Shown piece by piece: positions 3,143 to 18,833 of a DNA stretch of 64,000 nt (position 1 is the first letter of the stretch; each line of letters starts with the position of its first letter). This stretch comes from Embleya hyalina (GTDB lineage: Bacteria > Actinomycetota > Actinomycetes > Streptomycetales > Streptomycetaceae), in NCBI RefSeq assembly GCF_003967355.1, contig NZ_BIFH01000042.1:1-64000 (forward strand), read 5' to 3'. Position numbers and translations under genes: made by a program. Under the pieces are notes generated by a model. It was not told the origin of the DNA. It searched no databases and saw only the letters and a list, made by a program, of their open reading frames with translations.

Positions 3143-3588
3143 GTCCGTGCTCCCACCGCCGTCGGCATCGGGGCCTCCGGCTGGAGGGTGGCCGACGGGA
3201 GCGGACACCAAACACGACCCCGGCGGTTGCTCCCGACAGCCCATGGCTTGCCTGCCGGCCCCACCGCCTCGGAGCGCGATTCCGAGGCGGGGGACACCGA
3301 CATCGGGGGGCGCGGCGGTGATCGTTGATAGGCTCCGGCACGCTCGGTAGTCTGTCGACGGCGGGGAGTGAGATGCGTTCGGGTGTGCGTCGAGACCCGG
3401 TGTCGATCCTTGGGCCGCACAGATCTCGGCCGTGCTCGAAGACCTCGGCCATCGCGTGACGCCGCGGACCGGTGACGTGTCGCCGGAGACGGACACGATC
3501 CACGCGGTGGGTGCCGACGCACGACGCCACGAGTCGTCCGACGTCGGCCGCGGACGAGCAGGCAGGGCGAGACGACAAGGGAACCTCG
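3143..3588. other. intergenic region between divergent genes
   Basis: This 446-bp stretch contains no gene I can support. It holds the upstream region of the N-acetyltransferase (minus strand) and a good plus-strand promoter candidate at 3325-3353. An ATG at 3373 preceded by GGGGAG opens a 28-codon frame ending at 3459, but nothing else supports it as a gene. Confidence 0.5.
3325..3353 (+). promoter_or_regulatory. putative housekeeping-type promoter
   Basis: TTGATA (3325-3330) and TAGTCT (3348-3353) are separated by exactly 17 bp, which fits the principal-sigma (HrdB-like) consensus. Transcription would start near 3360 and read into the membrane-protein gene at 3589. This is a consensus match only. 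Confidence 0.45.
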
Positions 3589-4107
3589 ATGTTCAGAACG
3601 CGCCGGTCCGGGGACCACGAGGGCAAGGCAGGAGGCCGTGCCCACGTCGACTACAGCGGCGGCGTCTACGGATCGATGCTCGCCGCTTCCGTCATCGTCG
3701 GTGCCGGGGGACTGGGCTCCTTTCCGCGCCTGGAACTGGCGTTGCTGCTCCTGGCCACCGGGGTCGTCTTCTGGATCGCCCACGTACACGCACAACTGTT
3801 CGGCAAGCGCATGTCCCAGCGGCACCTGAGCCGCGACATCGTGATGAGTGTGTGCGGGGAGGAGTGGCCGATCGTCAAAGCCGCCATCCCGCCTGCGATC
3901 GCGGTGCTCGTCAGCCCGCTGCTCGATTTGGGAGACCAGGGCACGGTCTGGCTCGCGCTCGTCGTCGCGATCGGCGGGCAGGTCGGATGGTCGCTCGCCG
4001 CCGCCTTTCGACTCGGTGCCTCCACGCGGCTCGTGGTCGTCGCCGCGGCGGTGAACCTGGTGCTCGGATTGGCCATCATCCTGCTCAAGGTCTTCCTGAC
4101 GCACTGA
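3589..4107 (+). CDS. small multi-pass membrane protein of unknown function
   Basis: I do not recognise a characterised family for this 172-residue protein. After a charged N-terminus (FRTRRSGDHEGKAGG) it shows about five hydrophobic segments: roughly residues 28-42, 47-68, 95-112, 118-138 and 147-168. It ends in KVFLTH. A short motif HVHAQLFGKRMSQRH sits at the end of the second segment. The ATG at 3589 follows AAGGGA at a suitable distance. Upstream codons in the same frame are Arg/Thr-rich and do not look coding. It lies 98 bp before the drug exporter on the same strand and may be co-transcribed with it. It is probably an integral inner-membrane protein. Confidence 0.75.
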   Translation: MFRTRRSGDHEGKAGGRAHVDYSGGVYGSMLAASVIVGAGGLGSFPRLELALLLLATGVVFWIAHVHAQLFGKRMSQRHLSRDIVMSVCGEEWPIVKAAIPPAIAVLVSPLLDLGDQGTVWLALVVAIGGQVGWSLAAAFRLGASTRLVVVAAAVNLVLGLAIILLKVFLTH

Positions 4108-4205
4108 ATCCGACGCGGCCACGTCGTGACCGCGGAGCCGCCATTCGACGTACAACCGTGGCGAGTCGCGAGCCCGCCCCCGGGGCGCTGCGCGACGATG
4201 TGCCC

Positions 4206-5819
4206 ATGACGGACAAGGCTGGGCCCGCGGTGGGTTCGGCGGCGGCACTCGTCCTGGGGACGCTGGCCGCCGGGCAGTTCCTGATGGCGCTCGACAGCTC
4301 CGTCATGAACGTCTCGATCGCGACGGTGGCCGACGACGTCGGCACGACCGTGACCGGGATCCAGGGCGCGATCACGGCCTACACCCTCGTGATGGCGATG
4401 TTCATGATCCCCGGTGGCAAGGTCGGGGAACTCATCGGCCGAAAGCGCGCGTTCATGATCGGCTGCGCGGTCTACGGCTGCGGCTCCCTGACCACGGCGC
4501 TCGCCCCGAACCTGCCCGTGCTCCTGCTGGGTTGGTCGTTCCTGGAGGGGATCGGGGCAGCGTTGATCCTGCCCGCGATCGTGGCACTCGTGGCCGGGAA
4601 CTTCCCCGTGGAACGCCGGCCCGCCGCCTACGGACTGGTCGCCGCCGCAGGGGCCGTGGCGATCGCGCTCGGGCCGCTCATCGGGGGCATCGCCACGACG
4701 TACTTCTCCTGGCGCTGGGTCTTCGCCGGCGAGGTCCTGCTCGTGCTCGTGATCCTGGTGCTCGCCCGACATGTCGCCGACGCGCCGATCGGCGAACGCA
4801 GGCGCATCGATTTCGTCGGTGCCGTGCTCTCCGCCGTCGGGCTCGGGACCTTCGTCCTCGGAGTGCTTCGTTCCAGCGAGTGGGGCTGGTTTCTGCCGAA
4901 GGCCGACGCACCCCAGTGGCTCGGAATCTCGCTGGTCGTCTGGTTGATGCTGACGGGTCTGGCCGTCATCCGGTTGTTCCTGCACTGGGAGGCCCACCTC
5001 GTGCGGCAGGGCGGGGATCCGCTCGTGGATCCGGCACTGCTGCGCAACCGGCAGCTCACCGGCGGCCTGACCATGTTCTTCTTCCAGTACCTCGTGCAGA
5101 TGGGCGTGTTCTTCCTGGTACCGCTGTACCTGTCGATCGCACTCGGACTGTCCGCGCTGGACACGGGCGTGCGCATCCTGCCGCTCTCGCTCTCGCTGTT
5201 GGCGGCCGCGATCCTGATTCCGCGATTCCTCCCGAACGTCTCGCCCCGGCGAGTGGTACGGCTGGGGGTCCTCGCGTTGCTCGCGGGCGCGGTCGCCCTG
5301 ATGGCCGCCCTCGACGAAGGCGCCGGGGCGGAGGTCGTGACCCTCCCGCTGTTGCTGATCGGGCTCGGCATGGGTGCGCTGGCATCCCAGCTCGGATCGG
5401 TCACCGTCTCGGCGGTGCCGGACGAGCAGAGCGCGGAGGTCGGCGGCATCCAGAACGCCGTCACCAACCTCGGCTCCTCGATCGGTACGGCGCTCGCGGG
5501 GTCCGTCCTGATCGGGGTGATGACGACTTCGTTCCTGACCACCATCGAGGAGAACCCGGCGGTCCCGCCCCAGGTCACGAGTCAGGCGACGGACAAACTG
5601 CAGAGCGGGGCGCCCTTCCTCTCGGACGCCCAGCTCGAGACCGCCCTCGACGAGGCGGGTACGAGTTCGGAGGTGGCCCAGGCCGCGCTCGACGCGAACG
5701 CCGCGGCCAGACTCGACGGCCTGCGCGTCGCACTCGCCATCCTCGCCGTCGGCGCGCTCCTCGCGATGTTCTTCACCCAGCGGATCCCGACGACCCAACC
5801 CCGCTCGGCCCAGGCGTAG
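4206..5819 (+). CDS. MFS drug/proton antiporter, DHA2 (14-TM, EmrB/QacA) family
   Basis: This 537-residue transporter would expel hydrophobic or cationic drugs in exchange for protons. The first helix carries the DHA2 signature MALDSSVMNVSIATV. The loop 2-3 motif GGKVGELIGRKRAF and the motif C region LGPLIGGIATTYFSWRWVF are clear. About 14 membrane segments are present, with the usual pair of extra central helices. The C-terminal region includes NAVTNLGSSIGTALAGSVL, typical of the subfamily. The ATG at 4206 is the first codon of the recognisable N-terminus. No regulator gene is adjacent, so the substrate cannot be guessed. Confidence 0.9.
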   Translation: MTDKAGPAVGSAAALVLGTLAAGQFLMALDSSVMNVSIATVADDVGTTVTGIQGAITAYTLVMAMFMIPGGKVGELIGRKRAFMIGCAVYGCGSLTTALAPNLPVLLLGWSFLEGIGAALILPAIVALVAGNFPVERRPAAYGLVAAAGAVAIALGPLIGGIATTYFSWRWVFAGEVLLVLVILVLARHVADAPIGERRRIDFVGAVLSAVGLGTFVLGVLRSSEWGWFLPKADAPQWLGISLVVWLMLTGLAVIRLFLHWEAHLVRQGGDPLVDPALLRNRQLTGGLTMFFFQYLVQMGVFFLVPLYLSIALGLSALDTGVRILPLSLSLLAAAILIPRFLPNVSPRRVVRLGVLALLAGAVALMAALDEGAGAEVVTLPLLLIGLGMGALASQLGSVTVSAVPDEQSAEVGGIQNAVTNLGSSIGTALAGSVLIGVMTTSFLTTIEENPAVPPQVTSQATDKLQSGAPFLSDAQLETALDEAGTSSEVAQAALDANAAARLDGLRVALAILAVGALLAMFFTQRIPTTQPRSAQA

Positions 5820-6021
5820 CCGACGTGCGTCCGGCACGACCGCATGGGCGTGGGCACGTCGGCGCCCGCGGTACTCGCGCCCCCGCCGTCGGTGCCGCGT
5901 CGACCGATCGCCGGTCGGAAGGGTGGCGGATCGGGTCCGGCACTACCGTTGGAAGGAGCATGACCGGCGCCGGAACGCGGGCCGAGCCCGCGTTTCGTGA
6001 GCACGCGGTCACGGAGGAGCC

Positions 6022-7461
6022 ATGACGGATGCCGAGAAGCCGTACCGGGGTCCCCGAACAGGCCGCGACCGTGGAGATCCCCGCACGGAGGCCACGACCC
6101 CCGAGGCCCGACCACTGCCGGTGACAGCCGCCCAGCGCCGGTTCGCCCGGCTGGCCTTCGCGGCCGCGCTCGCCACCGCGGCGATGCTCGTCGTCGGCGG
6201 TCGCACCAGCCTGTTCGTGCTGATCGTGGGTGTGCTCGGACTCGTGGTGACGCTCGCGGCGCTGTGGGGATTCCTGAGCAGACGAGGTCCGCTGCGCTGG
6301 GCCTGCGCCATCGTCACCGTCGCCGTGCCGATCACCGTGATCGCCGTCTACATCGCTCGCGGCCATTTGTGGGACATCGTGCTGACGCTGCTCCTGGCCG
6401 CGCTGGCGGTCGCCGCCGCGCGGGCCGCCCTGGTCCTGGCCCGGCCGCCCGCCGGCATGCCCGAGCGCGAGACGCCGCCCCCGGCCCGACCCTTTCTGAT
6501 CATGAACCCCCGCTCGGGCGGAGGGAAGGTCGGCCGGTTCGCACTGGACGACAAGGCGGCCGCGCGAGGCGCCGAGGTGGCGCTGCTGACCGGCCCCGGC
6601 CCGGTCGACGTGGCCGCGCTGGCCCGACGGGCGGTGGCGGACGGGGCCGATCTGCTCGGGGTCGCGGGCGGCGACGGCACCCAGGCACTCGTCGCCGGCA
6701 TCGCCGCCGAGAACGACCTCCCGTTCCTCGTCGTCTCGGCGGGCACGCGCAACCACTTCGCGATGGACCTCGGGTTGGACCGGGAACGGCCGGACGCCGG
6801 CCTCGACGCCTTGGACGACGGCGTCGAACTGTGCCTGGACCTGGGGCTGATCGGTGGGAGGACCTTCGTCAACAACGCCTCGTTCGGTGCGTACGCCGAG
6901 GTCGTGCGGAGCCCGGAGTACCGGGACGACAAGCGGGGCACGATGCTTCGGTTGTTGCCCGAGATGCTCTCGGGCCGGCGCGGCCCCCACCTGGTCGTCC
7001 GGATCGACGACGACGTGGTCGTCGAGGCGCCGAAGGCACTGCTCGTCAGCAACAACCCGTACGAGTTCGGCGGCCCGGCCGAACCGGGCCGGCGGAGCCG
7101 GCTCGACACCGGTCTGCTCGGCGTCGTCGCGATCACGGTCGACAACGCCGAGCAGGCCGTCGAACTGCTGCGTGGCCGCCGCGGCCGAGGACTGCGCACA
7201 CTGGTCGCGCACGAGGTGCTGGTCGAGTCGGACGCCCCGCAGATCCCGGTCGGCATCGATGGCGAGGCCGTGCTCATGCCCACCCCGGTGCGCCTCACGA
7301 TCCGGCCGCTCGCGCTACGGGTGCGGGTGCCGCGGGAACGGCCGGGCGTGCCACGGCCGAAGCCGGTGTTCGACCTGGCACTGCTGCGACGCCAAGCGCT
7401 GACGATGGCGCGTCTCGCCGGTGGCGGCACCTCCCCGACCGGTCGCCGGCGGCGGAGCTGA
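6022..7461 (+). CDS. diacylglycerol-kinase-type lipid kinase with N-terminal membrane segments
   Basis: The 479-residue protein has about four hydrophobic helices in residues 40-145. A DAGK catalytic domain follows from about residue 155: FLIMNPRSGGGKVGRF (phosphate loop), GVAGGDGTQALVAG (the GGDGT nucleotide motif) and SAGTRNHFAMDLGLD. Enzymes of this family (DgkB/YegS/BmrU type) phosphorylate diacylglycerol or related lipids at the membrane with ATP. The fused membrane region is common in actinobacteria. GGAGGAG lies just before the ATG. The stop overlaps a small hairpin, and the next gene converges. The substrate is not determinable from sequence. Confidence 0.88.
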   Translation: MTDAEKPYRGPRTGRDRGDPRTEATTPEARPLPVTAAQRRFARLAFAAALATAAMLVVGGRTSLFVLIVGVLGLVVTLAALWGFLSRRGPLRWACAIVTVAVPITVIAVYIARGHLWDIVLTLLLAALAVAAARAALVLARPPAGMPERETPPPARPFLIMNPRSGGGKVGRFALDDKAAARGAEVALLTGPGPVDVAALARRAVADGADLLGVAGGDGTQALVAGIAAENDLPFLVVSAGTRNHFAMDLGLDRERPDAGLDALDDGVELCLDLGLIGGRTFVNNASFGAYAEVVRSPEYRDDKRGTMLRLLPEMLSGRRGPHLVVRIDDDVVVEAPKALLVSNNPYEFGGPAEPGRRSRLDTGLLGVVAITVDNAEQAVELLRGRRGRGLRTLVAHEVLVESDAPQIPVGIDGEAVLMPTPVRLTIRPLALRVRVPRERPGVPRPKPVFDLALLRRQALTMARLAGGGTSPTGRRRRS

Positions 7462-7477
7462 CGGGCCGATGCCCGTC
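7460..7477 (+). terminator. short hairpin between convergent genes
   Basis: A perfect inverted repeat with arms GACGGGC and GCCCGTC and loop CGAT starts inside the lipid kinase stop codon. No T-run follows, as is common in GC-rich actinobacteria. It could serve both convergent genes. Confidence 0.4.
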
Positions 7478-7522
7478 GGCGGATCGCCGGCCGCGGCTCG
7501 GCGCGGGGGCCTCGGCGGACTT

Positions 7523-7774
7523 CTACTTCGCGGGCGTTGCCTTGGCCTGCGCGGTCGACCACTTCAGCTCGATCTCGAGTTCGATCTCGCCGTCGCCCAC
7601 TTCCACCTCGACCTCGCTGCGCAACGCGTCGGGAACATGCATGCTCAGCACGCCCGGACCGAGCTCCAGTTCGACGTGACCGCCGCGCCTGAGCGCGACC
7701 GCGAGCGCGGACAGCAACTCGGCCGCCTCGGTCCGCGACAGCGAGCCCTTCTGCTCGAACTTGAGGTCCTTCAT
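7523..7774 (-). CDS. amphi-Trp domain protein
   Basis: This 83-residue protein matches the amphi-Trp family throughout: KFEQKGSLSRTEAAELLSAL at the start, the acidic VEVGDGEIELEIELKW core, and the final conserved Trp. The family is small, soluble and of unknown biochemical role; members often sit among stress-related small genes, as here. GGGAGG lies before the ATG. The tail AQAKATPAK is short and basic. Confidence 0.85.
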   Translation of the reverse strand: MKDLKFEQKGSLSRTEAAELLSALAVALRRGGHVELELGPGVLSMHVPDALRSEVEVEVGDGEIELEIELKWSTAQAKATPAK

Positions 7775-8076
7775 GGAACGCCTCCCAACCGCCGGGAACA
7801 GCCTTTGCAGTCGAGTCTGCGCCCGGTCCGGCCCCCGGGCATCTTGCGCTGCGGGCGCCGGACGGGTGTGGGCGGTGTCCTGCGGAACGTCGTACCGGCG
7901 CGCTCTCGGCGCGGTGCCGCGCCGACCGCTCGACTGGACGCGGCGAGTCGGGCGGAGTTCCCATGGAGACGGGGCAGTGGATTCGCCGTGGCTTCCGCGG
8001 CGGGTTTGCCCCGGGTGGGTGATCCGACCATACGATCCGTGGAAGGCGTGTCGGTGACGTCCTCGAGGATTCTCGG
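7775..8076. other. divergent intergenic region
   Basis: This 302-bp region separates the amphi-Trp gene (minus) from the helix-bundle gene (plus). I see no open frame with coding character and no clear terminator or tRNA. It presumably contains both promoters, but no consensus match is good enough to mark. Confidence 0.5.
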
Positions 8077-8355
8077 ATGAACGTCCGGCGGGATGAGCAG
8101 GCCGCGATCGGGCATGCGGCGGCGCGGTTGAAGTCCGCGTTCCCCTCCGTGGATCCGGACACCGTCGACGCGCTCGTCGAGCAGGCCCACGACGCGTTGA
8201 GCGGTGCCACGATCCGCATCTACGTCCCGATCCTGGTCGAACGACGTGCCCGGACGATGATCACGGACGGCCTCGGGCCGTTCGGGCCGTCGGCGCCGCC
8301 CGAGGCCGAACACCGGGAATACGGGGCCACGGCCTGGCACGCCCATGATCGGTGA
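8077..8355 (+). CDS. three-helix-bundle dimerisation domain protein
   Basis: A 92-residue protein whose first 65 residues (QAAIGHAAARLKSAFPSVDP, then DALVEQAHDALSGATIRIYV) match the small actinobacterial family with a predicted three-helix dimerisation bundle. The pattern VDALVEQAHDxL followed by RIYVPILVERRAR is typical. The C-terminal 25 residues are low complexity (GPFGPSAPPEAEHREYG). The ATG follows GAGGATTCTCGG. No enzymatic motif is present; the function is unknown and the protein is likely cytosolic. Confidence 0.75.
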   Translation: MNVRRDEQAAIGHAAARLKSAFPSVDPDTVDALVEQAHDALSGATIRIYVPILVERRARTMITDGLGPFGPSAPPEAEHREYGATAWHAHDR

Positions 8356-8482
8356 GCCGACCGAAGGCGGGCCTCCACGTGAAGGGCGTTGTGCACGACA
8401 CGCCATCCGGCCACCGGGCGGCGATGGGCGTGCACCGCTTTTCCGGTGGCCCGCGCGAACCCGTCCCCGGCATCATCGTCCG

Positions 8483-8989
8483 ATGATCGACGACCAGCGC
8501 GTACATCCCTCCAAGGTGGCCGACGACCGCGCGTCACTCACCTCGTTCCTCGACTATCAGCGGGCGACGTTGGCCATGAAGTGCGCCGGTCTGACCGGCG
8601 GGCAACTGAAGCGGAGGGCGATCCCGACGTCGGGGCTCACCCTCCTCGGCCTGATCCGCCACGCGGCGGCGGTCGAGCGGACCTGGTTCCGCTCGGTCGT
8701 GCGCGCCGAGGACGTCGAGATGCCCTGGCCGGGCAGGATCGACGGTACGTTCGCCGAGTTCCACGTCGAGGACGCCGACGTCGACGAGGCGTTCGAGGTG
8801 TGGCGCGACGAGTGTGAACGGGCGCGCGCCGTCGTCGCCTCCTTCGATTCCCTCGACGACACGGTCCGGTTTCGTGGCGAGGCCGTCTCCATCCGCTATG
8901 TCCTCATCCACATGATCGAGGAGTACGCCCGCCACAACGGCCACGCCGACCTGCTGCGCGAAGCGATCGACGGAGTCGTGGGGGAGTAG
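8483..8989 (+). CDS. DinB-family protein
   Basis: This 168-residue four-helix-bundle protein is of the DinB/YfiT-like family common in actinobacteria. The three metal-binding histidines are visible in LIRHAAAVERTWF and HMIEEYARHNGHADLLRE. Members include thiol-dependent transferases (mycothiol- or bacillithiol-dependent); the reaction here is unknown. The ATG at 8483 begins MIDDQRVHPSKVADDRASL, and no clear Shine-Dalgarno precedes it, so the message may be leaderless. It converges with the M28 peptidase-like gene. Confidence 0.88.
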   Translation: MIDDQRVHPSKVADDRASLTSFLDYQRATLAMKCAGLTGGQLKRRAIPTSGLTLLGLIRHAAAVERTWFRSVVRAEDVEMPWPGRIDGTFAEFHVEDADVDEAFEVWRDECERARAVVASFDSLDDTVRFRGEAVSIRYVLIHMIEEYARHNGHADLLREAIDGVVGE

Positions 8990-9172: not shown

Positions 9173-10138
9173 TCACCAGGCCACGGCGGTCGTCCAGATC
9201 GTGTGGAAGATCCCGTCCGCGCTGCGGTCGAGGGCCTTCGGGTCGATGTTGGTGGTCGTGTCGCAGGAGGCGTGGTGGCACACGTCGAACGGGCGGTTCG
9301 CGGTGCCGCCCCACTTGGCCGCCTGCGCCGACGTCTTGATGCCGGCGGCGCCCGTCGTGTATCCGGACGTGGGTATGCCGGCCTCCTGGAAGGGCACGTT
9401 GTCGGAACGGCCGAATCCCTCGATGTTCTCCTCGGGGTACAGGTTCAGGGCGTTCCAGTACTGCCTCAAGGGCGCGGCCGTGGGCGACGAGACGCGGTCG
9501 ACGAAGTAGCCGGCGTTGGTCGAGCCGACCGTGTCGATGTTGTAGTAGGCGGTGATCGCGGCGCGTTGGGCCGCGGTGAGCGATCGCACGTACGACTGCG
9601 AGCCGTCGAGGCCCTGTTCGGTGCCCGGCCACCAGATGAACCGCACGCTCTTGGTCATGGTCGGGTTCTCCCGGGCCAAGGCGAGCGCGTTCTCCAGAAG
9701 GACGGCGGCGCCGGAGCCGTTGCCGTTGATGCCGGGTCCGCCGAAGACGGTGTCGAGATGGGCACCGAACACGACGACCCGACGGTCCCCCGGAGGGCCG
9801 GGGGGTGGGGCCGGCCATTCGGCGGTCAGGTAGGTGGCGGAGCGGAGGCAGGGGACGCAGGTCCTCTGCTCGACACTGATCCCCGCGCTCTGCAGCTTGC
9901 CCTGTATGTAGTCGCGCGACGCGTTGTATCCGGTGGTTCCGGTCACCCGATTGTTGCCGAACCGGGCGGTCGTCGCCTGGAGTTGGGCCAGGTGCGATTG
10001 CACCCGGGCGACGTCGACGTCCGGCGGAGAGGTCTTCGCCGACGGCGCCGACGCGGCGGCGGACGGTGTGGTCGTCGAGACCACCAGCGCGGCGACCAGC
10101 GCCATGATGGTCGCGATCGCCTTGGTTCTGCGGTTCAT
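9173..10138 (-). CDS. secreted M28 aminopeptidase paralogue with degenerate active site
   Basis: This 321-residue M28-fold protein has a Sec signal peptide (MNRRTKAIATIMALVAALVV up to about residue 29). The family uses two zinc ions to remove N-terminal residues. Against Streptomyces griseus aminopeptidase, His127 (GAHLDTV), Glu174, Asp202 (YNIDTVGS) and His288/289 (VCHHASCD) remain. The bridging metal ligand Asp of GINDNGSG is Gly139 (GINGNGSG), and the general-base Glu of the AEE pair is Thr173 (PGTEQGL). The protein is therefore probably catalytically dead or altered. The next peptidase gene upstream keeps all of these residues. GAGGAG precedes the ATG. Secretion to the outside is expected. 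Confidence 0.88.
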   Translation of the reverse strand: MNRRTKAIATIMALVAALVVSTTTPSAAASAPSAKTSPPDVDVARVQSHLAQLQATTARFGNNRVTGTTGYNASRDYIQGKLQSAGISVEQRTCVPCLRSATYLTAEWPAPPPGPPGDRRVVVFGAHLDTVFGGPGINGNGSGAAVLLENALALARENPTMTKSVRFIWWPGTEQGLDGSQSYVRSLTAAQRAAITAYYNIDTVGSTNAGYFVDRVSSPTAAPLRQYWNALNLYPEENIEGFGRSDNVPFQEAGIPTSGYTTGAAGIKTSAQAAKWGGTANRPFDVCHHASCDTTTNIDPKALDRSADGIFHTIWTTAVAW

Positions 10139-10353
10139 CGAGGCTCCTCGAAGTGGAAGACGTACCTCGATCACGATTCCGGCCTGCGCCGGGTGCTCTC
10201 CCGATCGGCGCGCCGGCGGCGGTGGGCATCGGAAGCGTGCCCGAGCCGAGACCAGGCTCGCACCGGGCGCGCGGCCCCTGTAGGGCCCGATCCGGGCCGG
10301 CAAGATTCGGCACACCATCGACCGTCCGGGTGTCCGCGGCCGGGGTTCGGCGC

Positions 10354-10821
10354 TCAGTCCCAGACCAGGGACACGATTCGGTGGCCTTCGGGGTTGTCGG
10401 GAAGATCCGTGAACCGGTCGACCCGGTACACGAGTCCTTCGATCACCCCGTCGGCGCACAACGATTCGTGATCCACCCGGCGTTCGATCTCCCGCGTCGT
10501 GGCGCTCGTGCACACGGCGACGGCCTCGGCCAGGACACCGTCGCCGCAGACGAGGTCGTCGTGCGGTTGCACCCGGATCCACGCGACGTCGGGCGCCTCC
10601 TGGAGCACGCGCAACCGCCGGTGAATCTCCGCGAGTTCGGGCCGTTCGTCGGCGGGCCGGTGCACTTCCCATCGGTTCGGGGCGAGGGAGTCCTGCGCGT
10701 GGTTGCCCACGAAGAACTCGTCGAGCGTGAGCAGCGGGAGGGCTCCGCCGGCGGCCTCGGAACGGGCGACGAGTTCGATGGAGGTGATCACGAGGACACC
10801 GTACGGCCGCCGGCGAAGCAC
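10354..10821 (-). CDS. conserved actinobacterial hypothetical protein
   Basis: This 155-residue soluble protein resembles unnamed Streptomyces proteins that I recall by pattern only: LTLDEFFVGN near residue 33, SLAPNRWEVHRP, AVAVCTSATTREIE and a final GHRIVSLVWD. No catalytic motif, signal peptide or membrane segment is visible. The start is taken as the GTG at 10821; a GTG at 10791 (ITSIELVARSE) would remove ten residues and neither has a good ribosome site. It lies between two secreted peptidase genes on the same strand but has no obvious link to them. Confidence 0.7.
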   Translation of the reverse strand: MLRRRPYGVLVITSIELVARSEAAGGALPLLTLDEFFVGNHAQDSLAPNRWEVHRPADERPELAEIHRRLRVLQEAPDVAWIRVQPHDDLVCGDGVLAEAVAVCTSATTREIERRVDHESLCADGVIEGLVYRVDRFTDLPDNPEGHRIVSLVWD

Positions 10822-10973
10822 CGTGTGGATGGGCGCGACGATGGCGCGGCCGGCCTCGGCCCGTCGCCACCGGAGCAGCCGCGCCCGCCTGTCGCGGCTG
10901 CGCCTCTCCGCCCGGACCGTGCGAACGGCCCGGGTGGAGAGGCTTCGGCCGCGGGTCGGCGGTTCTCCCCCGG

Positions 10974-12455
10974 TCAGCGGCTGATGGCTCGCAGTGCGGC
11001 CCGGCCGGCGGTGGTGCAGATGGCGAGGGCCTCGATGCCGACGTTGGTGATGGTGTCGCCTGCGGTGTGGTAGCGGGGGTCGAAGGGTTGGCCGACGGTA
11101 CCGCCGAAGAGTTCGGCCTCACGGTCGTTCTTGAGTTCCGCGGGTGCGCTGCGGACGGTGTCGATCCCGGCGACGGGGATCCCGGCGTCGAGGAAGGGAA
11201 CCTGGTCGGACATGCCGTCGACGGGGCCATCGAGCCAGGGTTGGCCGATGGCGGTGAAGTGGTCGGTGAAGTGACGTTGCGGCCCGTTGCCATAGACGCC
11301 GATGACGTGGTTGGGGGCGGCGACCATGTCCATGTTGAAGTAGGCGCGGATCGGCCGGAGCGGTTCGGTCTCGACGAAGTGCCGGGAGCCGCGCATGCCG
11401 TCCTCTTCGCCGCCCCACCAGCAGAACCGCACGGGAGCGCGGGCGGGCTCGGCGGCGAGGACGTGTGCGAGGTGGAGGAGCAACGCGGAGCCGGAGCCGT
11501 TGTCGTCGATGCCGGGGCCTTGCGGGACGCTGTCCAGATGCGCGCCGATCAGGTGTCTGTCGGCGGTGGCGTCCGGGAGCTCGGTGAGCACGTTGAAGGT
11601 GTCCACATGCCGCCGCCGCAACTCCAGTTCGACGCGCACCGTCGCGCCGCCGGCTTTCATGTCCTCGCGCAGCGCGGTCGCGTCGCTGGAGAACACGACG
11701 CCCGTCGGCGGCAGTTCGGTGTCCCCGGGAGCGTCGAAGAACAGGCCGATCGGGATGTCGGCTTGATCGAGGTAGAACAGGGCCGCCGTGATGCCGGCGG
11801 CGCGGGCGTGGATCAGTGCCCGGCGGGCGGCCTCGGTCTGATCCGCGGCGATCCGGTGCCTCGCGGTCACGCCGCCACCGCGGTATCCGCCCCCCACGTA
11901 CTCTCGGCGGGCACCGCGCAACAGGTTCGGGCGCAACTGCAACAGGGCCACCTTCCCGCGCGCGTCGATCCCCTCCCAACTGTCGGCGGCGTCGCCGAAC
12001 GCGTCGCGGGGGATGACCAACTCCCCGGTGTCCCCGCCGGCCGGTGATGCCGCGACTCCTTCCGCCACGGTGTGAAATACGTCGCGCTGCCGGGGGCGGA
12101 CCTGTTCGACGGTGTCCCGTATGTGATCGGTGCGGTCGTAGCCGAACGGTTGGCGCCGGGTGCGGTATCCGGATCGGCGCAACTGTTCCTCCACGTAGAG
12201 CGCGGAGTGCGTGTAGCCGGGGAGGCCGGCCGCCCGGTTGCCGCCGTGCCGGGCGGCGATCGTGTCCAGCATCGCCATGTGCCGCTTCACCGGCGCGGTC
12301 ACACGTCCCGCGGCCGAAGGGGTCCCGACGGGCGAGCCGTACGCCCGCGCCCGCCCGGCCAACCCGGCCGAGGCCACGGCCCCCGCCGTCATCGCCCCCA
12401 GGATCCGCCTCCGGGACACTCCCTCGACCACCCGGTTTCCGTCCTGTGCTGTCAC
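10974..12455 (-). CDS. Tat-exported M28 family zinc aminopeptidase
   Basis: This 493-residue peptidase begins with a twin-arginine signal (SRRRILGAMTAGAVASAG). A PA-like insert precedes the M28 catalytic domain. All metal and catalytic positions are intact: HLDSVPQGPGIDDNGSG (His and bridging Asp), WWGGEEDGM (general-base Glu and metal Glu), FNMDMVA (Asp) and YHTAGDTITNV (His). It should remove N-terminal residues from peptides outside the cell. The GTG at 12455 was chosen because GGAAAGGAG lies 7-8 bases upstream; the open frame extends further, but that part is not coding-like. Its intact active site contrasts with the neighbouring paralogue. Confidence 0.9.
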   Translation of the reverse strand: MTAQDGNRVVEGVSRRRILGAMTAGAVASAGLAGRARAYGSPVGTPSAAGRVTAPVKRHMAMLDTIAARHGGNRAAGLPGYTHSALYVEEQLRRSGYRTRRQPFGYDRTDHIRDTVEQVRPRQRDVFHTVAEGVAASPAGGDTGELVIPRDAFGDAADSWEGIDARGKVALLQLRPNLLRGARREYVGGGYRGGGVTARHRIAADQTEAARRALIHARAAGITAALFYLDQADIPIGLFFDAPGDTELPPTGVVFSSDATALREDMKAGGATVRVELELRRRHVDTFNVLTELPDATADRHLIGAHLDSVPQGPGIDDNGSGSALLLHLAHVLAAEPARAPVRFCWWGGEEDGMRGSRHFVETEPLRPIRAYFNMDMVAAPNHVIGVYGNGPQRHFTDHFTAIGQPWLDGPVDGMSDQVPFLDAGIPVAGIDTVRSAPAELKNDREAELFGGTVGQPFDPRYHTAGDTITNVGIEALAICTTAGRAALRAISR

Positions 12456-12571
12456 TGTCGACTCCTTTCCGTCGCTGCTGTTTCGGTCGGTGCGCAGGGC
12501 GGTGGATTCCGACGCGGCGAACGCCGCCGCATCGCTCGAATCGCACGCCACGAAGCGGGAATCGCGCTCCG

Positions 12572-13435
12572 CTATCGACGTGGTCCCGACAGGGTGCTCC
12601 GGATCCAGTCCAGGTGGTCGGCCACGGAGACGTCGATACCGTCGGGCCGCTCCCGGCCGTCGAAGAACCAGCCGACGCGGGAGACGACCCCGCCCAGGGT
12701 CCAACCGCAGCGGCCCTTCACCAGCACCGGACCGCCCGAATCCCCGGCCCGCGCGGATTCGCCGACGGGCGTCGTCGCGACGCAGAACTCCTTGTCGGCG
12801 ATGTACTTCCCGTCCGGGCCGTCGCAGCGCCGGGAGGTGACGACCGAGGAGTCCAGCCGGCGCAGCATGGTGGGGGGATCCGGGAAGGGATCTCCCGGCT
12901 TCTGCGGCAGTTCGTGGTCTCCCCAGCCGAGGATGCGAACGCGGGTGCCGACCCCGGGCCGCTTTTCGGGCAGGTCCACAGGGGTCGCCTCGACGGGGGC
13001 GTCGAGCTTCAGGAGAGCCAGATCCGTCCCGAGCCCATCGGCGTCACCTGCGCCGTCGGGCGCGGACACCACCTGTGCGATGCCGCGGACCTCCCCGCCC
13101 CCGGTCCGGTCGAGACTGCCGACGCGTACCTGCTTGTCCTGCGTGTCGATCGGTTTGCCGTCCCTGTCGAACACGCAGTGGCGTGCCGTCAGGACCCACG
13201 TCGGCGCGATCAGGGAGCCGCCGCAGATTTGACCACTGTCCTTCTTGCTCTGCATCGATGCCATGAACGAGTACGGTTTCGTCACCTCTTCGCCACCGTT
13301 GATCGCCCGGGCCGGCGATGTGCCCAGTGCCGTTGCCAGCAGTGCGGTTGCCGCGGTCCCCGCCACGCGGGCCGCCCGGAGCCTTCCCCGTGCGGAACGG
13401 CGGGACGGGGCGGTTTTCGTCGTCGATTTCCACAT
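12572..13435 (-). CDS. secreted trypsin-like serine protease (S1A)
   Basis: This 287-residue chymotrypsin-fold protease has a basic Sec signal ending SPARA followed directly by INGGEEV, the usual mature N-terminus form (I-x-G-G). No propeptide is evident. The triad is visible as TARHCV (His), TDLALLKLD (Asp) and GDSGGPVLV (Ser). Cysteines pair around the His loop and near GRCGWTLGG. The S1 pocket residue lies within CVATTPVGESARAGDSGG and is not an obvious Asp, so trypsin specificity is uncertain. The ATG at 13435 lacks a strong ribosome site. It lies downstream of the histidine kinase on the same strand. Confidence 0.88.
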   Translation of the reverse strand: MWKSTTKTAPSRRSARGRLRAARVAGTAATALLATALGTSPARAINGGEEVTKPYSFMASMQSKKDSGQICGGSLIAPTWVLTARHCVFDRDGKPIDTQDKQVRVGSLDRTGGGEVRGIAQVVSAPDGAGDADGLGTDLALLKLDAPVEATPVDLPEKRPGVGTRVRILGWGDHELPQKPGDPFPDPPTMLRRLDSSVVTSRRCDGPDGKYIADKEFCVATTPVGESARAGDSGGPVLVKGRCGWTLGGVVSRVGWFFDGRERPDGIDVSVADHLDWIRSTLSGPRR

Positions 13436-13515
13436 GGGACGAGCCAACCAACCGCCCCATTGCAGGGAGATAAGGTCGCCGGCCGAACAGCCGCGCGGCC
13501 GGCGGTTGTCGGGCC

Positions 13516-14709
13516 TCAGGGGTCGGTGAACGTGACAGCGATCCCCAGCCCACCGTCCGCACTCGCGGCGGCCTCGACCCTCGCGCCGTGGGCGTCGGCG
13601 ATGGAGCGCACTATGGAGAGGCCGAGTCCGTGCCCGCTGTCGTGGCCCACCCGGTCCCTGGCCAGCCGGCGGAACGGCTCGAACAGGGTGTCGACTCGGT
13701 CGGCGGGGATCCTGGGGCCGGTGTTGGTGACGGTGAGCGTCCGGCCTCGGAGTGCCACGACGACACGGCCACCGGCATGGTTGTAACGGATGGCGTTGTC
13801 GACCAGGTTGGTGAGGAGATGGCGCAGGAGTACGGGATCGCCGTCGACGTCGACGGGGGAGCCGGTCACCGTCACGACGACGTCCTTCTCGTGGGCCGAG
13901 TCGGCGAGGTCGACGGCGGCTTGCCGGGCCAGGCCCCGAACGTCGACCGGCTCGGTGTCGTCGAGCCCGCGGTCGCTGCGGGCGAGCAACAACAGTGCGG
14001 CGATGAGCTTCTCGGCGTCCCGGTTGGCGGTGAGCAGGTCCTCGCGAACCTCGACGAGACCCTCCGGCAGCGGATCGGCGAGGCCGACCTCCAGGCCGGC
14101 CCGCTGGACGGCGAGTGGGGTGCGCAGCTCGTGCGAGGCGTTGGCGACGAAGCGGCGCTGACTGTCGAAAGCCTTCTCCAGTCGGTCCAGCATCGTGTCG
14201 AAGGTGTCGGCGAGGCGGTGCAGTTCGTCGTCGGGGCCGGTCAGGCCCAGCCGCTCGTGCAGGTTGTGATCGCTGATCCGGCGCGCGGCGTCGGTCATCG
14301 AGGCGATCGGTCGCAGTGCCCGCCCGGACAACCACCAGCCGATCAGGGCGGTGAGCAGGGTCAGCACCGCCAGTCCGACGCCGGACCAGAGCAACAATTG
14401 CCGTAGCGCGGCCTCCTGGACGATCTCGACGGTCCGGTTCACCAGCCTGGCGGCGACGCCTTCGGCGCCGGACCGATCCCATGTCGGCCCGAACGCGGTG
14501 GTGCCGTCCGGTGCCGTCGGCCCGGCGTTGCCCGGGACCGCGTTCGTGGGCAGCCGCGTGATCTCCATGCCCTGGACCTGCTGCGCGGTGCCATAGCGGG
14601 CCAGCAGCACGACAAAGGCCAACAGGGCGGCGCCGGCCAGCAGGAACAGCCCGCCGAAGGCGCCCGCCAGCCTGGCCCGGAAGGGCAACCGGCGCGGGTT
14701 CAGTCGCAC
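13516..14709 (-). CDS. sensor histidine kinase
   Basis: This 397-residue membrane kinase has TM1 around residues 12-36, an extracytoplasmic sensor loop of about 75 residues, and TM2 (LLLWSGVGLAVLTLLTALIG). A HAMP linker, HisKA with FVANASHELRTPLAV (phosphoacceptor His), and HATPase_c with NLVDNAIRYN and GHGLGLSIV follow. The GTG at 14709 (VRLNPRRLPFRARL) overlaps the 3' end of the response regulator by 10 bp, so the two are translationally coupled. The partner is the OmpR-type regulator upstream. Divergence from a MacB/FtsX-like ABC transporter suggests that this system controls that transporter, as in envelope-stress or antimicrobial-peptide modules. Confidence 0.92.
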   Translation of the reverse strand: MRLNPRRLPFRARLAGAFGGLFLLAGAALLAFVVLLARYGTAQQVQGMEITRLPTNAVPGNAGPTAPDGTTAFGPTWDRSGAEGVAARLVNRTVEIVQEAALRQLLLWSGVGLAVLTLLTALIGWWLSGRALRPIASMTDAARRISDHNLHERLGLTGPDDELHRLADTFDTMLDRLEKAFDSQRRFVANASHELRTPLAVQRAGLEVGLADPLPEGLVEVREDLLTANRDAEKLIAALLLLARSDRGLDDTEPVDVRGLARQAAVDLADSAHEKDVVVTVTGSPVDVDGDPVLLRHLLTNLVDNAIRYNHAGGRVVVALRGRTLTVTNTGPRIPADRVDTLFEPFRRLARDRVGHDSGHGLGLSIVRSIADAHGARVEAAASADGGLGIAVTFTDP

Positions 14710-15362
14710 AGCCGGTAGCCCTGGCCCGCGTTGGCGGTGATCACTTCGCGATCGCCGAGTTTGCCCCGCAGTCGGCTCACGGTGGAGCGCACCGCGCTCG
14801 TTCGCGGATCGAGGTGCTCGTCCCACACCGCCCGCATGATCTCGTCGTGCGGCACCGCCTCGCCCTCGGCCTCCAGCAGCACCTGCAGAACGGCGAACTC
14901 CCTGGGTGTGAGCTCCACGCTCCGGTCGTCGACCGTCACCTCTCGCATGGCACGATCCAGGGTGATGCCCCGATGCCGCAGCACCACGGGCGGCGGCTTG
15001 GGGACGCGCCTGCCGAGCGTGCGGATACGCGCGACCAATTCGGCGAAGTCGAAGGGCTTGGCCAAGTAGTCGTCGGCGCCGAGTTGTTCCAACCCGTACA
15101 CCCGGTCCTCCAGCGCCCCGGCGGAGGTGAGCATCAGGATGCGCGGCGGATCGACCATCCCGCGCAGCCTCCGGCAGACCTCGTCACCGGTCATCACGGG
15201 CAGGTCGCGGTCGAGCACCAGCACGTCGTAGTCGGTGAGCTGGGACATCCGCTCGGCCTCGTCGCCCGAGAGGGCGAGGTCCACCGCGATCGACCGCCGG
15301 CGCAGGCCGGTTGCGATCATCCGCGCCAGCACGCGATGGTCTTCGGCGACCAGAACTCTCAT
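14700..15362 (-). CDS. OmpR/PhoB-family response regulator
   Basis: This 220-residue regulator has a receiver domain (VLVAEDHRVLARMI, acceptor Asp in VLVLDRDLPVMTGDEV, Thr/Lys in LMLTSAG and DDYLAKPFDFAEL). A winged-helix DNA-binding domain follows (ELTPREFAVLQVLLEAEG, SAVRSTVSRLRGKLGD, NAGQGYRL). The ATG at 15362 (MRVLVAEDH) is the family-typical start; no clear Shine-Dalgarno is seen. It pairs with the overlapping kinase. The direct repeats at 15425-15459, between it and the divergent ABC genes, are a plausible binding site. Confidence 0.92.
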   Translation of the reverse strand: MRVLVAEDHRVLARMIATGLRRRSIAVDLALSGDEAERMSQLTDYDVLVLDRDLPVMTGDEVCRRLRGMVDPPRILMLTSAGALEDRVYGLEQLGADDYLAKPFDFAELVARIRTLGRRVPKPPPVVLRHRGITLDRAMREVTVDDRSVELTPREFAVLQVLLEAEGEAVPHDEIMRAVWDEHLDPRTSAVRSTVSRLRGKLGDREVITANAGQGYRLCD

Positions 15363-15424
15363 GCACCGATGCAAGCAGCCCGAGCGTTGCACGGACGTAA
15401 GCAACCGGGCCGACCGGATGCCCC

Positions 15425-15459
15425 CTTATCCCGCCGCAACAGAACTTATCCCGCTGCAA
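15425..15459 (+). promoter_or_regulatory. direct repeat, likely response-regulator operator
   Basis: Two copies of a 15-mer, CTTATCCCGCCGCAA (15425-15439) and CTTATCCCGCTGCAA (15445-15459), differ at one base and start 20 bp apart, two helical turns. They lie between the response regulator and the divergent permease gene, 25 bp before its ATG. Head-to-tail half-sites on one DNA face are how OmpR-family dimers bind. The assignment to this regulator is inference. Confidence 0.6.
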
Positions 15460-15484
15460 GGTTCGGCCTGTTCTGCTCTGCGTC

Positions 15485-16738
15485 ATGAATTTCGTCAAAC
15501 GGGCGGCCCGGAGTCTGGCCGCTCGCAAGGGCAAGACGACGCTGCTGCTCGGGATTTTCCTCGTGGTGTGCGTGCTGTTGCTGGGCGGCTTCCTGCTGCA
15601 GAGCGCCATGGCCCGCCAAGAGGCGCAGGCGCAGCGCCGGATCGGCGTGGACGTCACCGTACGCGGGGACAAGCTGACCGCGGAGGCGGCGGCGAAACTG
15701 GCGGCCGCGCCCCTGGTGGAGCGCTACAACCCGGTGCTGCGGCGCACGGTGCGGCTCTCGGGTCTGAAGCTCGTCGAGGCCGACGCCTTGCGGCCGGCGG
15801 GCAGTCGGCCGGAGCGGGACGGGCCGGGGCTGACCGGCCTGCGGGACTCCGCGATGTTGCTGGACTTTGCCACCGGACGGGTCACTTTGACACAGGGTCG
15901 TCACCTCACGGCGCAAGACGCGGACCGCAGGTTCGTGCTGATCGGGGAGCAACTCGCCGCGAAGAACAAGCTCACGGTCGGCGACACAATCCAGCTGACG
16001 GCACCGGACGGGACCGGGCGCACGGCGTTCGAGATCATCGGCGTCTTTCGCGACGGCCGGCCCCAGCTTCTCACCACTTGGGTGGATCCGGCCGAGCTGC
16101 CCGCCAATCAGATCTACGCCCCGCTCGGAGCGCTCGGCGCGCTGGGCCTCGGTGGCTCGCTGGACGAGGCGGTCTTCAAGCTCGGCTCGCCGGAGCGAGC
16201 CGAACGGCTGCACGCCGTCGCCGGGCGGCTGCTCGGCGGCGACGGTTTCCGTTTCGACGTCAACGACAAGGCCTTCCGGGACCAGGTGCAACCCCTGCGG
16301 CGGGTCGGCGCGTTCGCCGGCGCGCTCGTCTGGCTGATCGCCGGGGCGGGCACCGTGATCCTCGGCCTGATCGTCACCCTGACCATCCGCGAGCGGCGCG
16401 ACGAACTGGGAGTGCTGCTGTCGCTCGGCGAGAAGAAGTGGAAGCTCGTCGGGCAGCACACGGTGGAGGTCGCCACCGTGGCGGTACCCGCGCTCGCACT
16501 CGCGGCACTGGCCGGAATCGCCCTCTCGGGGCCGGCCGCCGCACACCTTCCCGGGCACGGCGGCAAGCCCGCCGTGTCGCGGTCGGAAGCCCTGCCCCCG
16601 CCCGAACTGCGGATGGACCCCGCCGACCTCGGCAAGGTCGCCGGCCTCGGCCTCGGTATCGCGCTGGTGTCGACCGTGCTTCCCGGCATCGGCATCCTCC
16701 GCCTGCACCCCCGATCCATCCTCACCGACAGCGAATAG
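15485..16738 (+). CDS. ABC transporter permease, MacB/FtsX family
   Basis: This 417-residue permease has one N-terminal membrane helix (TTLLLGIFLVVCVLLLGGFLL), a large extracytoplasmic domain of about 230 residues, then three C-terminal helices. These include GALVWLIAGAGTVILGLIVTL followed by the coupling-helix segment RERRDELGVLLSLGEKKW. This topology is that of the type VII (MacB/FtsX) ABC systems, which act on periplasmic or surface substrates rather than moving solutes through the membrane. It starts an operon with a second similar permease and one ATPase, divergent from a two-component system. Confidence 0.88.
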   Translation: MNFVKRAARSLAARKGKTTLLLGIFLVVCVLLLGGFLLQSAMARQEAQAQRRIGVDVTVRGDKLTAEAAAKLAAAPLVERYNPVLRRTVRLSGLKLVEADALRPAGSRPERDGPGLTGLRDSAMLLDFATGRVTLTQGRHLTAQDADRRFVLIGEQLAAKNKLTVGDTIQLTAPDGTGRTAFEIIGVFRDGRPQLLTTWVDPAELPANQIYAPLGALGALGLGGSLDEAVFKLGSPERAERLHAVAGRLLGGDGFRFDVNDKAFRDQVQPLRRVGAFAGALVWLIAGAGTVILGLIVTLTIRERRDELGVLLSLGEKKWKLVGQHTVEVATVAVPALALAALAGIALSGPAAAHLPGHGGKPAVSRSEALPPPELRMDPADLGKVAGLGLGIALVSTVLPGIGILRLHPRSILTDSE

Positions 16739-16755
16739 CGTTAGGCAACGTCGAC

Positions 16756-18126
16756 ATGAACCTCCTCAAACGCGCGGCCCTGAGCCTGTGGTCGCGCAAG
16801 ACCAAGACCCTGATCACACTGGGGACTTTCCTGGTCATCTCCGTGATGGTGCTCGGCGGGATCCTGATCAGGGACGCCACCGCCCGGGCCGGTGACGCCG
16901 CCAAACGACGGATCGGCGCCGACGTCACCCTGGGCATGGACGTCAACGCGTCGGCCAAGTCCGGGCAAATGCAGGCGCCGCAGATCCGCACCGGCACCGT
17001 CGACAGGATCGGCGGGTCGCCGCTGGTAGAGCGGTACACGTACCAGTCCTTCAATCTCGCCGCCCTGCGCGGCGGTCTGAAACTGCCCGGCAAGCCCATC
17101 TACCCCGAAGCCCCGAACTCGGCGATGGCCTTCGGCGTACTGGACTCCACGCTCCAGCCGGACTTCGCCGGCGGCACGTGGAAACTGCTGTCCGGCACGC
17201 CGATCACCGGCGCGGACCGGGCCAAGAACGTCGTCCTGGTCGAGGAGCGGATGGCGCGTACGAACAACCTCAAACCCGGCGACCGGATCACGCTCGGGGA
17301 GAACGACCCGCAGGGCACCCGCACCGCCGAGTTCATCGTCCAGGGCGTCTACCGCGACCCGTCCGACAAACCCGACCCCGAGTGGCAAATGGACCCGGGA
17401 AACCGGCTGTTCGCCCCGGCCGAGGCCCTCGGCAGGCTCAACGGGGAGCAGTCGCCGACGGTGGGCACGGCGACCTTCCGACTCAAGGACCCCGCCACGT
17501 TCGAGCGATTCGAGGCCGAAGCCAAAAAGGCCGCCGGGCCCGAGCTCAACGGATTCACCCTCGGCATCAACGACAAGGCCCTCAGGCAGATGACCGGCCC
17601 GCTGTCATCCGTCTCGGACACCGCCACCATCGCCATGTGGCTCATCGGCATCGCCGGTGCCGCCGTACTGGCACTGCTCACCGCCCTGTGGGTCAAACAA
17701 CGCCGCACGGAATTCGGCGTGCTGCTGGCACTGGGCGAACGGAAGTGGAAACTCGTCGCCCAGCAGGCGGCGGAGATCGTCGTGGTCGCCGTACTGGCGG
17801 TGGGCCTCGCCTCGTTGTTCGCCGGAGCCCTCACCGAGTGGGCCGGCAACTCCCTGATGGGCAACGAGGCACGCGCCGCCCAACGGAAGCTGGACTCCTG
17901 GCGGCCCCCGCCGCCCGGCTCGACCGGCCTCGGCGAGGGCATCGACCCCGACGGCGGCCCCGTCAAGGGCGCCGACCCGATCGACGAGATCACCGTACGT
18001 CTCGACAACGGCACCCTGGCCTCCGTGGCCGGCCTCGGCCTCGTCGTCGCGCTGCTGTCCACCGCGATCCCCGCGACATCCGTGCTGCGCCTGTCCCCCC
18101 GAATCATCCTCTCGAAGGGCAAGTGA
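16756..18126 (+). CDS. ABC transporter permease, MacB/FtsX family (second paralogue)
   Basis: This 456-residue permease is a clear paralogue of the one before it (shared RAALSLWSRKTKTLITLGTF-type start and RRTEFGVLLALGERKWKLV coupling segment). It has the same 1+3 helix layout and a large external domain. A proline-rich insert (SWRPPPPGSTGLGEG) lies between the last helices. The ATG begins 17 bp after the previous stop, and the ATPase ATG follows two bases after this stop, so the three form one transcription unit. Two unequal permeases with one ATPase imply a heterodimeric MacB-like complex. Confidence 0.9.
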   Translation: MNLLKRAALSLWSRKTKTLITLGTFLVISVMVLGGILIRDATARAGDAAKRRIGADVTLGMDVNASAKSGQMQAPQIRTGTVDRIGGSPLVERYTYQSFNLAALRGGLKLPGKPIYPEAPNSAMAFGVLDSTLQPDFAGGTWKLLSGTPITGADRAKNVVLVEERMARTNNLKPGDRITLGENDPQGTRTAEFIVQGVYRDPSDKPDPEWQMDPGNRLFAPAEALGRLNGEQSPTVGTATFRLKDPATFERFEAEAKKAAGPELNGFTLGINDKALRQMTGPLSSVSDTATIAMWLIGIAGAAVLALLTALWVKQRRTEFGVLLALGERKWKLVAQQAAEIVVVAVLAVGLASLFAGALTEWAGNSLMGNEARAAQRKLDSWRPPPPGSTGLGEGIDPDGGPVKGADPIDEITVRLDNGTLASVAGLGLVVALLSTAIPATSVLRLSPRIILSKGK

Positions 18127-18128
18127 CC

Positions 18129-18833
18129 ATGACCGCCGACACCGCGACCGACCCGCCCGTCCTGCGGATCTCCGGGCTGAGCCACACGTACACCGGACAG
18201 CGTCGCAGGACCACCGTGCTCAAGCAGATCGACTACAGCTTCGAACGCGGCGTCTTCTACACCGTCCTGGGTGCCTCCGGCAGTGGCAAGACGACGCTGC
18301 TGTCCCTGGCATCCGGACTCGACGTGCCCACCGCGGGGTCGATCGCCTTCGACGGCGTGGACCTGCGGACCATCGGCCTGGGCCGCTACCGGAACAAGCA
18401 CGCGGCCACCATCTTCCAGCAGTACAACCTGCTCACCTACATGACCGCGGTGCAGAACGTCACCACCGCCATGGAGATCACCGGTGTCCGCGGCCGCCAC
18501 AGGAAGGCCCGGGCGATGGACCTCCTGGCCAGGGTCGGCCTCGACCGGTCCCAAGCCACCAGCAACGTCATGCGGCTCTCCGGCGGCCAGCAGCAGCGCG
18601 TCGCCATAGCCCGGGCCCTGGCCTGTGACGTCGACATCCTCTTCGCCGACGAGCCGACCGGGAATCTCGACGAGGACACGGCGCGGGGCGTCATCGACAT
18701 CTTCCGGGAACTGGCCCACGAGCAGAACAAATGCGTGGTGGTCGTCACCCACTCCCAGCAACTCGCGGCCCGGTCCGACCGCACCTTGACGCTTCGCAGA
18801 GGCAAGGTCACGGCCGTCTCGAACCGGGACTGA
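18129..18833 (+). CDS. ABC transporter ATP-binding protein, MacB/LolD type
   Basis: This 234-residue ATPase powers the two preceding permeases. Walker A is LGASGSGKTT (around residue 48), the Q-loop is FQQYNLLTYM, the signature is LSGGQQQRVAIARAL, Walker B is ILFADEPTGNLD and the switch His is in VVVVTHSQQ. The length and the EPTGNLD motif are typical of the LolD/MacB/BceA group. The ATG lies 2 bp past the permease stop. A strong hairpin at 18880-18924 follows the operon. Confidence 0.93.
   Translation: MTADTATDPPVLRISGLSHTYTGQRRRTTVLKQIDYSFERGVFYTVLGASGSGKTTLLSLASGLDVPTAGSIAFDGVDLRTIGLGRYRNKHAATIFQQYNLLTYMTAVQNVTTAMEITGVRGRHRKARAMDLLARVGLDRSQATSNVMRLSGGQQQRVAIARALACDVDILFADEPTGNLDEDTARGVIDIFRELAHEQNKCVVVVTHSQQLAARSDRTLTLRRGKVTAVSNRD

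Follow-up and report, generated by a model that had tools for sequence, protein, structure and literature searches.

Two genes for M28 aminopeptidases lie side by side in the window (the whole 64,000-nucleotide stretch of Embleya hyalina DNA analysed here), and one of them has an altered active site. The question raised by this locus is whether the altered gene is a peptidase in the course of decay or encodes a folded, exported protein that is kept for something other than catalysis. An earlier note on this DNA had favored the second answer. Three features are needed at the outset:

9173..10138, minus strand: P0001, putative pseudo-aminopeptidase gene; 321 aa, signal peptide and a single M28 domain, with D97G, E131T, M161T and Y246H (SGAP numbering)
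9176..10024, minus strand: M28 domain of P0001, residues 39-321; 58-62% identity to M28 domains at the C-terminus of M4-M28 fusion proteins
10974..12455, minus strand: P0002, intact M28 peptidase of another subgroup; 493 aa, GTG start, twin-arginine-like N-terminus (SRRRILGAM)

Active site and fold of P0001

P0001 is an SGAP-type M28 protein: it matches S. griseus aminopeptidase (SGAP; 1cp7) with an E value of 1.5e-69 and is a family homologue by profile, scoring 130.5 bits against Pfam M28 (PF04389; cut-off 21.3) over residues 118-312. Its AlphaFold model (pLDDT 86.4, pTM 0.85) superposes on SGAP 1qq9 with a Z of 42.6 and an rmsd of 1.5 over 275 residues, although the model is built on an alignment of active relatives and says little about stability. 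As the earlier note described, the frame is undamaged (0 stops and 0 frameshifts over 321 residues) and the N-terminus, MNRRTKAIATIMALVAALVVSTTTPSAAASA, resembles a Sec signal peptide when judged by eye.

Translation and the SGAP alignment agree on the residues that the same note listed as kept, namely H127, E174, D202 and the late histidine H289 (SGAP H85, E132, D160 and H247), and the Cys pair C287/C292 is also retained at the SGAP positions. Both of the losses it named are real as well. First, Gly139 stands where the bridging Asp should be, which leaves four of the five ligands of the di-zinc site. Second, the general-base Glu (SGAP E131) is replaced by Thr173, codon ACC. A count of two nevertheless understates the loss: His288 occupies the position of the SGAP-type Tyr (Y246) and Thr203 that of M161, and both had been missed. 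From SGAP and its Vibrio/Aeromonas relative, we take D97 to bridge the zincs, E131 to act as general base, Y246 to contribute to transition-state stabilisation and the Met to be a second-shell residue. The PDB contains an M180A mutant of the Vibrio enzyme. P0001 thus combines the M28 fold with lost catalytic residues, the pattern of a pseudoenzyme. Because the zinc-bridging Asp, the general base, the transition-state Tyr and the Met are all replaced, it should not hydrolyse peptides, and we consider it very probably dead as a catalyst.

A different possibility is that P0001 is still an enzyme but one with altered chemistry, in which His127, Glu174, Asp202 and His289 would hold a single metal ion and carry out a slower or different reaction. 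The four retained metal ligands are consistent with this. The general base of SGAP corresponds to E151 of the Aeromonas enzyme. A solved E151H mutant of that enzyme is titled “functional” (2anp), which implies that some residues can stand in for the base. Thr, however, offers no side chain that could act as general base, the bridging Asp is missing, Tyr246 and Met161 are lost as well, and each metal site would be left with only two protein ligands; residual activity of this kind is unlikely.

The replacements stand out among relatives. Each residue that P0001 has lost is kept in all 111 distinct full-length relatives, and none of them has any of its changes. In an alignment of 130 distinct M28 sequences, P0001 apart, both the bridging Asp and the Tyr are present wherever a sequence covers those positions, and the base and ligand positions are Glu-Glu in all of the relatives except two remote ones with Asp-Asp. 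DNA patterns for the motifs “WWxGTEQG” and “G[I/L/M]NGN” matched no other M28 gene across 395 family genomes; genomes that at first seemed to carry the changed motifs were set aside, as the matches there were not M28 genes. No orthologues with intact residues, which would mean a strain-specific mutation, came to light: the search found just paralogue-level relatives at 62% identity or less, all of them intact. No orthologue above 62% identity was present among 60 relatives, 394 other family genomes, the GTDB 220 contigs and plasmids, the genus being sampled by 4 Embleya genomes and two large secondary replicons. P0001 is so far known from one gene in one genome.

Origin and surroundings of the gene

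The nearest relatives of P0001, at 58-62% identity, are not its neighbor P0002 but the M28 domains that lie C-terminally in large secreted M4-M28 proteases. By Pfam, these proteases comprise an FTP propeptide, an M4 thermolysin-like domain, an Ig-like linker, the M28 domain and, in some, a CBM5/12 domain. The genome itself carries three such genes elsewhere (C14:482k, C14:604k and C21:106k). P0001 is not a fusion of this type: it has neither FTP nor M4 domain, and its signal peptide is joined directly to the M28 domain. In Streptomycetaceae, in this genome as in related ones, secreted M4 endoproteases are found fused to an SGAP-like M28 domain, and many of these proteins are extended at the C-terminus by an Ig-like, CBM5/12 or other domain. 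Two further sets of coordinates describe the 5′ end of the gene and its copies:

10045..10260, minus strand: 5′ leader and signal-peptide DNA of P0001; homologous leaders belong to FTP-M4 and M4-M28 metalloprotease genes at other places in the genome
C38:60036, C21:111204, C21:109466, C14:484835, C14:457075, C14:607080, C13:630957 and C13:818127: the other leader copies in the same genome

The leader homology extends from ~110 bases before the P0001 start codon to 85 bases after it. Homology to the M28 domain picks up only 27 nt further on, so ~1.77 kb is missing relative to the M4-M28 genes. When the genome was searched with the P0001 leader, all eight of the other copies lay ahead of FTP-M4 or M4-M28 genes. 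Given the homology of the leader to those of M4 genes, the close resumption of M28 homology and the placement of the other copies, it appears well supported that an internal deletion in a bifunctional M4-M28 protease gene gave rise to P0001: loss of the propeptide, M4 domain and linker would have left leader, signal peptide and M28 domain.

Descent from a standalone signal-peptide-M28 gene, as in Micromonospora and Saccharothrix, rather than from a fusion would concern the origin only and is compatible with every functional reading. There are four examples of such standalone relatives, and the position of P0001 in the tree is poorly supported (bootstrap 26-62). Yet the leader and signal-peptide DNA of P0001 best matches FTP-M4 genes of its own genome (E 2e-14 to 2e-8), and this, together with the eight leader copies ahead of M4 genes, makes standalone ancestry improbable.

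The leader common to the M4 metalloprotease genes is possibly a shared promoter or regulatory leader. Across the dispersed secreted M4 metalloprotease genes it spans about 60-200 bases, with a GTGTGAGTGTTTCGCTCGCTCGGGCACG-like block in most and a GGAGCCTCGATG start region in all. P0001 retains the GAGGAGCCTCGATGA start region, whereas the upstream motif GTGTGAGTGTTTCGCTCG, common to most sister leaders, has diverged, and expression of P0001 may for that reason be altered or lost.

P0002 holds every M28 catalytic residue, as had been claimed: metal ligands, general base and Tyr are all in place (alignment row HDDEEDMYH), and it scores 130.6 bits against Pfam M28 (cut-off 21.3). The description of the two genes as side-by-side is accurate for the window, but the pairing is incidental. 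Tandem duplication was rejected, since identity between P0001 and P0002 is ~41% and confined to the M28 domain, and the true sisters of P0001 lie elsewhere in the genome. A conserved gene pair was rejected too, because P0001 is absent beside the P0002 orthologue of E. scabrispora (87%) and sits in a stretch that has no match in the syntenic regions of Embleya sp. NBC_00888:

8339..10955, no strand: segment holding P0001, unmatched in the two Embleya sp. NBC_00888 regions that are syntenic with its flanks

Window positions 3574-8338 and 10956-18407 match two places ~3.2 Mb apart in NBC_00888, the second block being rearranged. Both blocks are on a 5.7 Mb second replicon there, and the junction in the window carries a mycothiol-S-transferase gene (8345-8989) in addition to P0001. 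In E. scabrispora, ~1.8 kb of the 20 kb taken matches the window. That genome also has a second, truncated P0002-type M28 copy at C152:27122-27634 (254 aa open frame, 81% identity). Near P0002, at 13044-15404, the window contains a trypsin-like secreted protease frame that adjoins a histidine kinase (13516-14826) and a response regulator (14700-15404).

Selection, decay and a possible retained role

The GC3 of P0001 is 0.919, compared with a GC of 0.74-0.78 in the non-coding DNA on both sides. Selection was examined with a purpose-written codon model applied to 16 M28 domains plus P0001 (273 codons). In the tree, the branch leading to P0001 measures 0.6 substitutions per site, long beside the roughly 0.03-0.1 of most close sisters. 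Its omega in the codon model was 0.21, versus 0.11 elsewhere; an omega of 1 was rejected (2dlnL 36), and equality with the background was borderline (2dlnL 4.0). An alternative tree gave an omega of 0.24 on this branch and again rejected an omega of 1 (2dlnL 31). A plain dN/dS, however, does not tell continued constraint on a pseudoenzyme apart from neutral evolution late on the branch: background constraint that gives way at the tip to 0.2-0.4 neutral substitutions per codon describes the branch about equally well (lnL -6350.97 for the split model with a 0.2 neutral phase versus -6349.88 for a uniform omega of 0.21).

That near-equal fit is what would be expected if P0001 were a duplicate that has begun to decay: through most of its history it would have been an active enzyme, losing function recently and not yet acquiring a stop or frameshift. 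A neutral phase of 0.2 would leave the gene free of stops with a probability of 0.18; P0001 is also absent from all other genomes searched, and the upstream motif shared by sister leaders has diverged in it. Several observations point the other way. First, longer neutral phases sit poorly with the open frame: the probability of no stop is 0.03 at 0.4 and ≤0.03 for 0.4 or more. Second, the changes are not spread evenly. Across the 111 full-length relatives 57 positions are strictly invariant, and P0001 differs at six of them (G62N, D139G, E173T, M203T, Y288H and A311F): four of the nine active-site positions are changed, compared with two of 48 elsewhere (Fisher p 0.004), or three of eight compared with three of 49 if the Met is placed outside the active-site set (p 0.03). 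Third, the change of Glu173 to Thr is GAG to ACC, with all three bases of the codon altered, which argues against a very recent loss. The probability of that change is of the order of 1e-4 for t of 0.2-0.3; multi-base mutations do happen. Early decay, the main rival to a retained role, is a possibility to be taken seriously, though we do not think it the probable course.

Retention for a non-catalytic role is the best single explanation, one that we would give an even chance of being right. The clustering of losses in the active site is as predicted by selection for a folded non-catalytic protein. Under this explanation the active-site replacements would likely have ended peptide hydrolysis, and P0001 would still fold, be exported and be kept for a non-catalytic task, steps that are modestly supported. 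The task would most plausibly be extracellular binding of the ligands of its active sisters, that is, peptide or protein substrates, or protease inhibitors. The earlier note's proposal of selection for a non-catalytic role rather than decay therefore survives in weakened form. The predicted loss of catalysis, the intact frame and signal peptide, the rejection of an omega of 1 and the clustered changes are in its favor, but against it stand the comparable fit of constraint that ends in a brief neutral phase, the long P0001 branch and the diverged leader motif. We rate a selected role as only slightly likelier than decay, also because no orthologue turned up in the collections searched that would show the inactive state persisting over time. 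A more speculative reading, which we think unlikely, is that a bifunctional endo/exo-protease gene, having lost its endoprotease half by deletion and also its exopeptidase site, became a secreted binding protein; this protein would modulate the many active M4 and M4-M28 paralogues of its own genome, either in their activity or in their access to substrate.

Comparison with known systems

SGAP (1cp7/1qq9) resembles P0001 in the fold of the whole domain (Z 42.6, 44% identity), the metal-site histidines, the Cys-pair positions and secretion, and differs in having Asp97, Glu131, Met161 and Tyr246 where P0001 has Gly, Thr, Thr and His. The M4-M28 proteases of the same genome share with P0001 the M28 domain, at 58-62% identity, and the 5′ leader and signal-peptide DNA. 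Unlike P0001, a lone M28 domain that is inactive as judged from its residues, they have FTP, M4, Ig-like and sometimes CBM5/12 domains and intact catalytic residues. P0002-type M28 proteins (E. scabrispora, 87%; Embleya sp. NBC_00888, 81.5%) belong, like P0001, to family M28 and are exported, and the two types adjoin in the window; they differ in subgroup, in their intact site and in an identity of ~41% over M28 only, and no P0001-like neighbor accompanies them in the relatives checked.

Literature on M28 pseudoenzymes, inactive peptidases and SGAP mutants offered little of direct use. KP1/PaAP entries in which Ala takes the place of the general base were considered as natural inactive relatives and discarded, as they are actually an engineered E340A mutant. 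To our knowledge, the known M28 homologues without enzymatic function are mainly eukaryotic, the transferrin receptor being the example. With its predicted inactivity, P0001 joins these already known non-enzymatic homologues. In the transferrin receptor the M28 fold has been reused without enzymatic function (PMC10794815). This M28B homologue is like P0001 in its non-enzymatic M28 fold (Z about 28 to the P0001 model) and unlike it in being a eukaryotic membrane receptor with extra domains, a remote relative whose loss was independent. P0001, if the present reading is true, would be a secreted bacterial M28 non-enzyme that shares one genome with its active parent family, making the step from enzyme to non-enzyme directly testable.
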